A stretch of DNA of 64,000 nt. It comes from an uncultured Pseudomonadales bacterium. GTDB lineage: Bacteria; Pseudomonadota; Gammaproteobacteria; Pseudomonadales; Pseudohongiellaceae. The stretch is from positions 1-64,000 of the forward strand of contig CALKNV010000018.1 in NCBI GenBank assembly GCA_938091935.1, read 5' to 3'. Positions within the stretch are counted from its first letter, which is position 1. Every line of letters begins with the position of its first letter. The translations under genes and the position numbers were made by a program. The notes under the pieces are model-generated. The model ran no database searches and was not told the origin of the DNA. It saw only the letters and a program-made list of their open reading frames with translations. This document shows, one piece after another, positions 7,880 to 60,268 of this stretch.

Positions 7880-8629
7880 ATGAAGTTGAAACACTATACA
7901 CTGGTTGGTATCGATCTGGCGTGGGTAAGTGCGAACAATCCGACGGCGATAGCAGTAGGCAGCCTGCGAGGCAAGACGCTGACTCTCGATGCAGTGTTGC
8001 AGAATCTTTATGGTATAGAGAGTATTCTTCAGCATCTTGCTGGCATCGATTCTCTTCATGGAGTCACCATTGACGGACCGACGATTATTCGAAATTTCAA
8101 TGGTAGAAGAGCCTGTGAGGATGAGCTGAGTCGGGTCTACGGTAGCCGTAAAGCAGGCTGCCATACTTCCAACCTGTCGCGTTATCCTAACGCCGATAGT
8201 GTCAAGCTAGGGGATGCGCTGGCAGCCAGAGGCTTTGTCCATCTTGGCAACCATGCTAAGTGCTGGCAGTCTGAGTGCTATCCTCATCCCGCTTTGATCG
8301 AAATCTTTCAGCTGCGGGAGCGGCATCTCTATAAGAAGGGTGGGGTAGAGCAGAAGCGGCAGGGACAGAAAGCGCTGGCGCAGTTGCTATTGCGCCTGGA
8401 AAGCTCGCCAGTACTGCGTTTGCGCATACCAGGCGAACTTAAATTCGTGTTTTCGCGTGAGGCGATCACGGCGCTGCGCGGGAAGGCTCTCAAGCATAAT
8501 GAAGATGCGCTGGACGCAGTGATCTGCCTCTACATCGCGGGACTGTATCAACTGGGTCACCAGGCCAGAATATTCGGTGATGCGGCGTCGGGCTATATCT
8601 ATGTCCCCCAGGGTGGCTGCTTGCCCTGA
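7880..8629 (+). CDS. DUF429 family protein
   Basis: A 249-residue protein with the DUF429 signature: LVGIDLAWVSANNPTAIAV at the N-terminus, an IDGP motif near residue 65, SRKAGCHTSN and the C-terminal NEDALDAVICLYIAG. The fold is predicted to be RNase H-like, with acidic residues (GID..., IDGP, EDALDA) positioned like a nuclease active site; biochemical function is not established for the family. No signal peptide is present. It may be co-transcribed with the preceding acetamidase-like gene, but the pairing has no obvious metabolic logic. Confidence 0.85.
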   Translation: MKLKHYTLVGIDLAWVSANNPTAIAVGSLRGKTLTLDAVLQNLYGIESILQHLAGIDSLHGVTIDGPTIIRNFNGRRACEDELSRVYGSRKAGCHTSNLSRYPNADSVKLGDALAARGFVHLGNHAKCWQSECYPHPALIEIFQLRERHLYKKGGVEQKRQGQKALAQLLLRLESSPVLRLRIPGELKFVFSREAITALRGKALKHNEDALDAVICLYIAGLYQLGHQARIFGDAASGYIYVPQGGCLP

Positions 8630-8974
8630 AGCGAATTGATGAGTGCGATTTGCTTGGGGTTCAATTGCTTAGCTGCATTTATTCAAGTGTCGATTCCACA
8701 GTCTTTCGCAACTTGCTAATTCCCCGGTATGAATTAGTCTTGCTCCTAAAGCTAACCTTGTGAATATTTAATGCTGTGTTAGTCCGTCAGCGTTTCGGCT
8801 CTTGTGGGTAATAAAACGCGATAGAAATCTTGAGCTGTTTAAAAAGCATTCAGATAGTTACTGTGTCACTGACCTTGCAGTCGTTGTGGATAAATTGTTT
8901 ATAAAACGATAGTTCAAAAAGTAATCAATCTTAAGCTTAAAGCAATTTTTTTTTCAAAAAAGTATTAAGAAATA
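8630..8974. other. A/T-rich intergenic region upstream of a strong promoter
   Basis: No coding potential on either strand. The last 80 bases (about 8895-8974) are extremely A/T-rich with phased T and A tracts, a pattern typical of UP elements that stimulate the adjacent promoter. Confidence 0.5.
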
Positions 8975-9002
8975 TTGGCAGCCACTAAGTTTTATGTATA
9001 AT
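8975..9002 (+). promoter_or_regulatory. Strong sigma-70 promoter
   Basis: TTGGCA at 8975-8980 and a perfect TATAAT at 8997-9002, separated by 16 bases, with an A/T-rich upstream tract. Transcription should begin near 9009. No annotated gene starts within 500 bases downstream. Confidence 0.65.
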
Positions 9003-9008
9003 CAAAGC

Positions 9009-9732
9009 ATCGTTGTTCAAAGTGATCGCTTCGGTGTAAAAACCAAAACGACTCTTCAAACAGCGCTCACGGCGCAGGAAGTAAGCCGGGAACAAACATC
9101 GAATTGCACTGTCGTTGCGGGCATGTCCGAAGCGGCTGAAAGCAAACGAGGAGGGTGGAACTCAAGGGTCTGAATCGAAAGATTTAGGTCGGCGAGGAAA
9201 GCAGGAATCGCAAGCTGCGGATTGATGCCCCGGAACTCTTGCTAACTGATGGAACGTTGTGACGAGTGCTTTTTCCATAGCATCAGGATCGCCAAAGAAT
9301 CTGTTCGGCCAACAGGCTTTGACGGGTCCCGGCCTAGGACTTTAAATCTGGGATTTATTTCTCAGAGGCACCCGGAAGCCACCGCAGACGCGCGAGCCCT
9401 CACAGGCGCGAGCCGATGCAACGGCCTATCGCTGAAGTCGCTGAAAAGTGATTTTTGGGGTACGTCAGGAAACTTGCGGGCTAGGGTTAAAAGAAGAACA
9501 CCAGTATCTTGTGCCTCACCGCTCAGATACTGACAGCTCAACTGATGATCCTGTAGAGGGGGCTCCGCTTGCGGCGTCCCTTCTCAAATTTTATATCGGC
9601 CGAAATTTCCTTCAGTTTAGCCTTTTGCACCTGCTCCACTTTTCTCCTAATAAATTCAGTTGCTTGGTTCCGCAGCGCATGTGCCCACTGTCTATTCTGA
9701 TATGGAGCGCAGGCTTACTGCGGTCCATTTTT
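9009..9732 (+). ncRNA. Candidate long structured non-coding RNA (about 0.72 kb)
   Basis: The segment between a strong promoter and an intrinsic terminator lacks a convincing ORF; the two longest frames (9249-9533 and 9448-9747) have non-protein-like composition and no ribosome site. RNA-like features include a 7-bp hairpin closed by a GAAA tetraloop (CTGAATC at 9170-9176, GATTTAG at 9181-9187), a 7-bp stem CAGTATC/GATACTG (9502-9508 and 9526-9532), and a repeated GCGCGAGCC (9390-9398 and 9406-9414). GGA occurs 10 times in 9061-9300, far more often than TCC. It does not resemble tmRNA, RNase P RNA, 6S RNA or SRP RNA as I know them. It could be a new ncRNA, or the leader of a lost gene. Confidence 0.5.
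9703..9732 (+). terminator. Intrinsic terminator of the candidate ncRNA
   Basis: Stem TGGA-g-CGCAG, loop GCTTA, CTGCG-g-TCCA, followed directly by TTTTT (9728-9732). It reads in the + direction and closes the unit that starts at about 9009. Confidence 0.6.
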
Positions 9733-59542: not shown

Positions 59543-60268
59543 ATGGAAACACTCAATATTTCAGATGGAGATCTCACCCACCGGCAGGAGATTATTCAGC
59601 TACTGCGCATGGCGATTGAACAGCAATGGTCGATGTCCTACGTGACTGCGGTGAAGAATCGCGTCACTACACACTCGCTTTACCTGGTCTCGGTTAATGC
59701 TCTTGAGGGCACAGTCTCAGTTAGTGGCAAGAATCTGGATACGATTAAGCCCGGTCAGACCCTTATGTTCAGAGGGCAGAGCGGCTCACTGTCAGTGGTA
59801 TTTCAGACCAGGAAGGGCGATCCCGCAACAGGCGTAAAAATACAAAACTCCGACAGCATTTTTGAATTTGACATCCCCTATAAAATCGCCTGTACTCAGT
59901 TACGAAAGACTTTGCGGGTTAATGTTGATTCATTCTACGAGGTACCCGTCATCCTTTATATGGTTAACGGTGCACTGATAGATTCGGTGCTTATGGATAT
60001 CTCGACTTCAGGCGCGAAATTTAGAGTCTACAAGGATCTGAACAAGGAGCTAAACAGCATGCAGATGGTTGATGCCTGCAAGATTACGTTGCCCGACGGA
60101 GAAGTCATACAGACCGGTGTGCAGCTCATCCAGATGATCAATGATGAGCAGTCTGAGCTCTCCTTCCTGCGCTGCCAGTTTATCCACATGAAGCCAGAGG
60201 AAGAGAATAAGCTCGAGAAATTCATCGAGGATACCCTCGCCAAGGTTGATGATCTTCAGCCTGACTAA
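59543..60268 (+). CDS. YcgR-like PilZ-domain c-di-GMP receptor
   Basis: A 241-residue protein with a YcgR N-terminal domain (residues to about 125) and a C-terminal PilZ domain. The c-di-GMP-binding residues are intact: RKTLR (RxxxR) in LRKTLRVNVDSF and DISTSGAKF (D/NxSxxG). YcgR-type proteins act as flagellar brakes or in biofilm switching; no flagellar genes are in the window, so the target is unknown. The ATG at 59543 lacks a strong ribosome site. It stands alone, upstream of the polyphosphate:AMP phosphotransferase gene by 230 bases. Confidence 0.85.
   Translation: METLNISDGDLTHRQEIIQLLRMAIEQQWSMSYVTAVKNRVTTHSLYLVSVNALEGTVSVSGKNLDTIKPGQTLMFRGQSGSLSVVFQTRKGDPATGVKIQNSDSIFEFDIPYKIACTQLRKTLRVNVDSFYEVPVILYMVNGALIDSVLMDISTSGAKFRVYKDLNKELNSMQMVDACKITLPDGEVIQTGVQLIQMINDEQSELSFLRCQFIHMKPEEENKLEKFIEDTLAKVDDLQPD

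Follow-up and report, generated by a model that had tools for sequence, protein, structure and literature searches.

RNAs of more than 500 nucleotides (nt) that have conserved structure of the kind described here and belong to no known family are rare. In a published account of earlier large RNAs, OLE, ROOL and GOLLD form multimers made of RNA alone, and a self-kissing loop between copies of OLE RNA was seen by cryo-electron microscopy (PMC12286853). The same account reads a switch between the palindromes GGCC and AGCU in OLE loop L9.3 as support for an intermolecular self-kissing loop, and describes ROOL as having multiple pseudoknots, with no protein partner found (PMC12286853). Here we describe a locus in a 64,000-nt stretch of DNA, called the window below, from an uncultured Pseudomonadales bacterium (Gammaproteobacteria; Pseudohongiellaceae): positions 1-64,000 of the forward strand of contig CALKNV010000018.1 in assembly GCA_938091935.1 (genome G000). 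Positions 9009-9626 of its + strand almost certainly hold the gene for a structured noncoding RNA which, by sequence, is a family of its own, matching no Rfam family. An initial annotation of the window had proposed a long structured noncoding RNA of a new class at this place, and that proposal was supported: the RNA is found in 12 genomes, has compensatory changes, keeps its control region and leaves Rfam silent.

The promoter, terminator, fold and reading-frame signs cited in the initial annotation are no better than chance, and the case therefore rests on comparison. Across the 12 carriers (G000, G002, G004, G006, G014, G023, G025, G078, G080, G087, G089 and G090), the aligned loci show conserved sequence, base pairing kept through paired changes, a pseudoknotted core and a conserved control region, and no conserved protein. 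Two carriers are represented in part of the alignments. The G080 locus is cut by a contig start, so that it supplies the 3' half and no upstream DNA; it is in alignment A4 and absent from A3 and A5. G025 is in A3 and A4 but not in A5, as its 5' part has extra length and aligns poorly. The features of the RNA and its 3' flank, all on the + strand, are as follows.

9009-9626, +: the RNA, about 618 nt, its start placed from the -10 element and its end from the conservation limit TTTAGYCTTTT
9069-9260, +: 5' domain, closed by the long-range stems 9069-9073 x 9256-9260 and 9081-9085 x 9238-9242, with CCGGG/CCCGG
9249-9278, +: hairpin TGGAA/TTCCA, whose loop holds the 3' strand of a long-range stem, forming a predicted pseudoknot
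9290-9324, +: hairpin presenting the palindromic loop (CG/CG, CAAAG/CTTTG, CTGT/ACAG)
9307-9310, +: self-complementary loop GGCC, the proposed self-kissing dimer site
9325-9341, +: hairpin GGTCC/GGACT with GCC in its loop (helix 12)
9348-9365, +: hairpin CTGGGA/TCTCAG (helix 13, 98.3% of cells paired)
9376-9470, +: variable arm holding the GCGCGAGCC repeat; length and sequence vary by clade, and it is shortest in G004 and G078
9483-9552, +: 3' domain, closed by AGGGTTA x TGATCCT
9553-9585, +: strongest covarying hairpin, about 14 base pairs (bp), with AAATTTTA after it; may be an intrinsic terminator or the final domain
9703-9732, +: terminator of the initial annotation (TGGAgCGCAG/CTGCGgTCCA plus TTTTT), a 10-bp stem outside the conserved unit

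Folding ten sequences with RNAalifold gave 100 pairs, 33 of which have at least one two-sided change that keeps the pair. In a model of 110 pairs, counted over ten sequences, 90.5% of the cells are paired, and two-sided changes occur in 33 pairs and 80 cells; no shuffle out of 500 reached these values. Sliding the partners against each other cuts pairing to 35.5-48.1%. Helix 15 sits one column off in this count and is hence understated; correctly placed, it is 94.3% paired. For the 3' domain, 11 of the 35 pairs have a two-sided change, as against 5.9 in shuffles (0 of 500 as high). Covariance analysis, a check suggested with the initial annotation, thus shows base pairs in the alignments kept through compensatory changes beyond both the shuffled and the slid controls.

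Support is strongest for 9555-9563 x 9576-9584, 9081-9085 x 9238-9242 and 9069-9073 x 9256-9260. Helices 2-4 of the 5' domain have 94-97% of cells paired, with 8 of 21 pairs changed on both sides, and helix 17 (9553-9585) reaches 97.3%, with two-sided changes in 6 of 15 pairs. Other helices have fewer such changes: helix 8, the hairpin at 9249-9278, is 91.7% paired with one two-sided pair in six; helices 10 and 11 (9290-9324) are 94.3% and 100% paired with one in 11; and helix 12 is 100% paired with one in five, the change being found in four sequences. The AGGGTTA x TGATCCT helix, taken from a seven-sequence fold (alignment A2), is 94-95% paired (95.4% in the 3'-domain count) and has two-sided changes in three of nine pairs. 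We also noted a possible helix closing the 5' and 3' ends, 9030-9040 with 9597-9602, a weakly aligned set of four pairs with 90% of cells paired and two two-sided changes.

The hairpin at 9301-9315, CTGT-tCGGCCa-ACAG, displays a tetranucleotide that is a palindrome in every one of the 12 RNAs; ten have GGCC, and the two sisters G006 and G014 have AGCU. When all four-letter stretches of the alignment were considered, the Watson-Crick complement of the loop in all 12 was the loop itself and nothing else, and each of the two switched RNAs contains AGCU a single time. The loop is exposed in the lowest-energy fold of three of four isolated pieces. A kissing pair between loop 9305-9311 and loop 9330-9336 was rejected, being broken in G006 and G014. 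As a sign of a homodimer the palindrome switch is suggestive, not proof, and by analogy with OLE we put homodimerization through a self-kissing loop at 9307-9310 at a little under an even chance.

The RNA most likely works like a large ornate bacterial RNA, and for this reason we place it with them. Transcription would start from the promoter at 8975-9002; the product, which very probably acts in trans, would fold into a compact particle; two copies would join through the self-complementary loop, as in OLE; and the homodimer would serve as a scaffold or a sequestering surface, the scaffold role being in itself a doubtful part of the scheme. Taken as a whole, this picture of an autonomous trans-acting RNA of about 618 nt that dimerizes and offers such a surface is the one towards which we lean. 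An extended version, in which a new ornate RNA of Gammaproteobacteria forms its self-kissing homodimer independently of OLE and has its transcription tied to DnaA and the replication state, we think unlikely.

Several results weigh against the favored picture. On the side of the fold, the AGGGTTA x TGATCCT helix was not picked in fresh folds of A4 and A5; pairing in helices 6 and 16 is only 84%; the number of further pair types is not above that in shuffles (164 of 500 for the 110-pair model, 23 of 500 for the 3' domain), nor does it exceed them in the recount with helix 15 correctly placed; and the window RNA folds no better than its shuffles (z -0.58, with 8 of 20 shuffles folding as well). 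The sample of 12 sequences represents about five lineages, so the covariation counts are partly inherited. On the side of the loop, one of the four isolated pieces has a best fold other than the hairpin, and the palindrome reaches 6 nt in just five of 12 RNAs. Two further points would suit an RNA that is real and monomeric, working by itself or as a scaffold for a protein complex, with the palindromic loop as a tertiary or protein contact. The change from GGCC to AGCU is a single evolutionary event, G006 and G014 being sisters, and once G-U pairs are admitted, the loop has one more possible partner in all 12 RNAs, GGTT at 9485. That GGTT (9485-9488), however, sits inside the AGGGTTA helix of the 3' domain, and under Watson-Crick rules no stretch other than the loop itself could pair with it throughout the 12 RNAs, AGCU being present once per switched RNA. 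We regard the monomer as a possible explanation with distinctly less than an even chance.

The conserved locus spans approximately 8860-9626 of the window. Homology to distant relatives ends near 9620-9626, and the RNA is therefore probably about 618 nt long, shorter than the unit of about 0.72 kb ending near 9732 that the initial annotation had drawn. The hairpin at 9553-9585 might end the transcript: it is kept in 12 of 12 and is terminator-like by our rule in seven of 12, but conserved letters run 40 nt past it. The terminator that had been taken to close the unit is present in its letters at 9703-9732; at that place it is found only in G000 and, in a weaker form, in G002, and not in the close relative G023. 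Other terminator-like sites lie more than 200 nt downstream in G023, G004 and G090, and such sites show no excess over chance in the window (4 against 3.4 expected). The stem at 9703-9732 may be a backup terminator or that of the convergent gene, and is not part of the conserved unit. Other details picked out from the letters are likewise real and local. The 7-bp stem with the GAAA loop (9171-9188) is identical only in G000, G023 and G002; the repeated GCGCGAGCC (9390-9398 and 9406-9414) is an exact pair only in the window, and the arm that holds it is largely missing in seven of 12 sequences. Judged by the alignments, the terminator, the GAAA stem, the repeat and the -35 element are mostly lineage-specific and are not grounds for believing in the RNA.

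The control region was compared in 11 sequences, since G080 has no upstream DNA. Its features are as follows.

8861-8871, +: upstream motif CTGTGNCACTG, an imperfect palindrome and likely regulator site, beginning 129-143 bp upstream of where the -10 element ends
8885-8893, -: exact TTATCCACA, a candidate DnaA box upstream of the promoter
8907-8917, +: upstream motif CGATnGTTCAA, present in slightly varying form in 8 of the 11 upstream regions
8975-9002, +: predicted promoter TTGGCA - 16 - TATAAT, with the -35 at 8975-8980, the -10 at 8997-9002 and an A/T-rich tract before it

By pattern, CTGTGNCACTG is in 8 of the 11 upstream regions; it has one mismatch in G002 and G004 and is absent in G025, and the window has one match against 0.21 expected. 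At the position of CGATnGTTCAA, G006 and G014 read CGGTCGTTCAA, and G025 lacks the motif. By their conservation both motifs belong to the RNA unit, and the control region is kept across different gene neighborhoods. The promoter is present as the initial annotation had described it, TTGGCA-N16-TATAAT after an A/T-rich tract, though promoter-like sites in the window are no more frequent than chance (2 against 2.4 expected). Its conserved part is the -10 (TATGTATAAT, exact in 8 of 11); TTGGCA is restricted to the clade of the window genome, and G006 and G014 have TTGGCC. In G025 the promoter was assigned by pattern only, and promoter and start are uncertain there; its RNA is about 150 nt longer in the 5' part, without CTGTGNCACTG or CGATnGTTCAA (L033:7457-7760).

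Control by DnaA is possible. An exact TTATCCACA, which we take to be the DnaA-box consensus, lies within 300 bp before the promoter -10 in 7 of 11 sequences and three of five lineages, at differing positions and on differing strands; shuffles lead us to expect it in 0.2-0.6% per sequence. This motif was picked after inspection of the sequences, and four of the 11 are without it. Besides the copy upstream of the RNA in the window, we noted copies in L030, L031, L033 and L035. A second exact copy in the window lies at 60180-60188, making two against 0.39 expected.

We searched for the RNA with DNA queries and with three covariance models: R1, built on the 3' domain, R2, and the mid-domain model R3. 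The DNA search found the locus in 7 of 58 genomes, including that of the window. Model R1 matches 12 of 84 genomes of the genus, the window genome included (E 1.6e-33 to 2.0e-17), and 5 of the 48 that are at least 90% complete. Stricter filters were used in the large searches. Model R2 found the same 12 carriers among 137 genomes of the family; in the order sample 2 of 390 genomes matched, both from the genus of the window genome; and in the class sample R3 matched one of 369, the window genome itself. With laxer filters, R3 gave weak matches in 12 of 40 genomes that had no earlier match (36 of the genus, four of sister genera), the best at E 0.52, and a divergent form of the RNA in these genomes was rejected on that score. 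An exact pattern scan of a collection of 84,980 species yielded 12 stretches, of which 11 are in Gammaproteobacteria, Pseudomonadales or Pseudohongiella records and appear to belong to genomes already found; the twelfth is in a Clostridia record. Pattern matches in Clostridia and in a viral contig (L048 and L050) fail both models, and we took them as chance.

Judged from these matches, the RNA is patchy inside one Pseudohongiella-like clade and confined to it as far as searched. Each genome has one full copy by model R1; a second match in G002 is partial and lies at a contig start. A tree of rpoB with 24 rows includes 9 of the 12 carriers (G000, G023 and G089 had no rpoB match), and on it the presence of the RNA needs five changes, one of them owed to the bad row of G004, which is an incomplete frame with an implausibly long branch. 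G006 and G014, which carry the RNA, have as sisters G005 and G067, which lack it. Comparison of flanking genes, named by Pfam, places the RNA in four contexts.

DUF429 protein and AMP-binding ligase: the window, G023, G002, G006 and G014
PQQ dehydrogenase and YdjM: G004, G078 and G090
Creatininase homologue: G080, G087 and G089
Cupin and CMD protein: G025

The next gene downstream is convergent to the RNA in 9 of the 12 carriers, and the RNA is therefore no leader at those loci; it is co-oriented in G004, G078 and G090. A cis-regulatory leader or riboswitch was rejected on this basis. In the window the gene just upstream encodes a DUF429 protein (7880-8626; Pfam E 3e-15), which implies no link with the RNA because other carriers have different genes there. 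Four RNA-less genomes retain the DUF429/ligase pair at spacings of about 33, 260, 354 and 344 bp, where the same measure with the RNA is 1180 bp in G014 and 1158 bp in G006. Among them, G005 and G067 keep the pair convergent, at about 260 and 33 bp. Where the RNA is missing, the gap thus still ranges between about 33 and 354 bp (L062, L065, L066 and L080), as might be expected of a flexible landing site. Given the RNA-less pairs and the rpoB tree, the RNA gene seems to be accessory, and to be lost or relocated together with its control region. Its scattered occurrence and shifting location suggest that the RNA is accessory and regulated, and not a housekeeping RNA.

The four contexts, the five changes on the tree, and the same convergent pair without the RNA in G005 and G067, sisters of G006 and G014, would also fit a mobile or selfish element that moves a cassette of about 770 bp between intergenic sites. 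We consider this improbable. Carriers have a single full copy each, the 10 flanking proteins tested include no transposase, reverse transcriptase or nuclease, and the RNA has no Rfam match. Carriage by a phage or plasmid was rejected, as the locus has no phage or plasmid match and the pattern match in a viral contig fails both models.

That the RNA is a divergent copy of a known one (RNase P, tmRNA, a group I or II intron, or OLE) is very improbable, despite comparable size and complexity and the palindrome switch shared with OLE. An Rfam scan, also suggested with the initial annotation, gave no match at the gathering score in the window and none at E <= 1 in nine loci (the window and eight relatives); unrelated models gave four matches at E 1.2-4.9, well short of their cut-offs and at chance level. 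RNase P was located elsewhere in 17 of 18 searched genomes, including 11 of the 12 carriers. tmRNA was above cut-off in 12 of 18, including six of the 12 carriers; the remaining carriers are drafts with a completeness of 58-96%, among them G014 at 96%. With these copies elsewhere, both identities were rejected. The OLE covariance model found nothing in the 12 genomes at E <= 10, but control genomes were also silent; OLE was rejected by model on this result and the nine loci. None of OapA, OapB and OapC was recognizable among the Pfam names of the 10 flanking proteins, and no genome-wide search for them was made. In a title-level survey of the literature on noncoding or small RNA of Pseudohongiella and on large ornate, dimeric and Gammaproteobacteria structured RNAs, we found no description of this RNA.

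CsrB/RsmZ-type RNAs are free-standing intergenic RNAs in Gammaproteobacteria, and with 14 GGA and four CAGGA motifs the window RNA might seem to be such a sponge, titrating a Csr/Rsm-type protein. The counts make this barely credible, and it was rejected: in all 12 RNAs the GGA count differs from the shuffle mean by no more than one standard deviation (14 against 12.9 +/- 2.3 for the window), ANGGA is not enriched, and CAGGA is high only in G000, G023 and G002 and zero in six others. The chance that the locus is a conserved DNA element or small protein gene, as peptide matches between clades of up to 79 residues (in an antisense frame) could suggest, is next to negligible, given that these matches are scattered over six frames and mostly shorter than 50 residues, as nucleotide conservation gives, and that compensatory pairing is in registers which sliding destroys. 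A coding gene was rejected: as the initial annotation had said, there is no credible open reading frame, the longest on the + strand (94 amino acids) being inside the shuffle range (71.5 +/- 21 in 50 shuffles), and a six-frame peptide comparison found no frame conserved across the carrier clades, where a protein conserved among relatives would have counted against the RNA.

Set beside known systems, the RNA shares with CsrB/RsmZ a free-standing intergenic place in Gammaproteobacteria, and differs from them in its lack of GGA enrichment and of an Rfam match. Like the raiA motif RNA it would be a large structured bacterial RNA; raiA is a monomer (PMC12286853), and no Rfam family matches here. 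ROOL and GOLLD are also large, and the same source describes kissing loops between their copies; it gives them as encoded by phages or prophages, often near tRNAs (PMC12286853), whereas the RNA here has no phage match, no tRNA in the 64-kb window and no Rfam match. The closest likeness is to OLE (RF01071). Both are ornate, standalone bacterial RNAs of about 600 nt with a hairpin-loop palindromic tetranucleotide that switches from GGCC to AGCU; the hosts of OLE are mainly extremophilic, Gram-positive bacteria, and those of the present RNA are Gammaproteobacteria. The OLE model gives no match here, with its controls silent. The likeness is one of mechanism, not homology, with the dimer seen in OLE and proposed here. 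If the reading of the loop is true, homodimerization through a switching palindrome arose in an unrelated RNA of another phylum, and the RNA-only multimers of OLE, ROOL and GOLLD would be instances of a recurring solution, not a curiosity.
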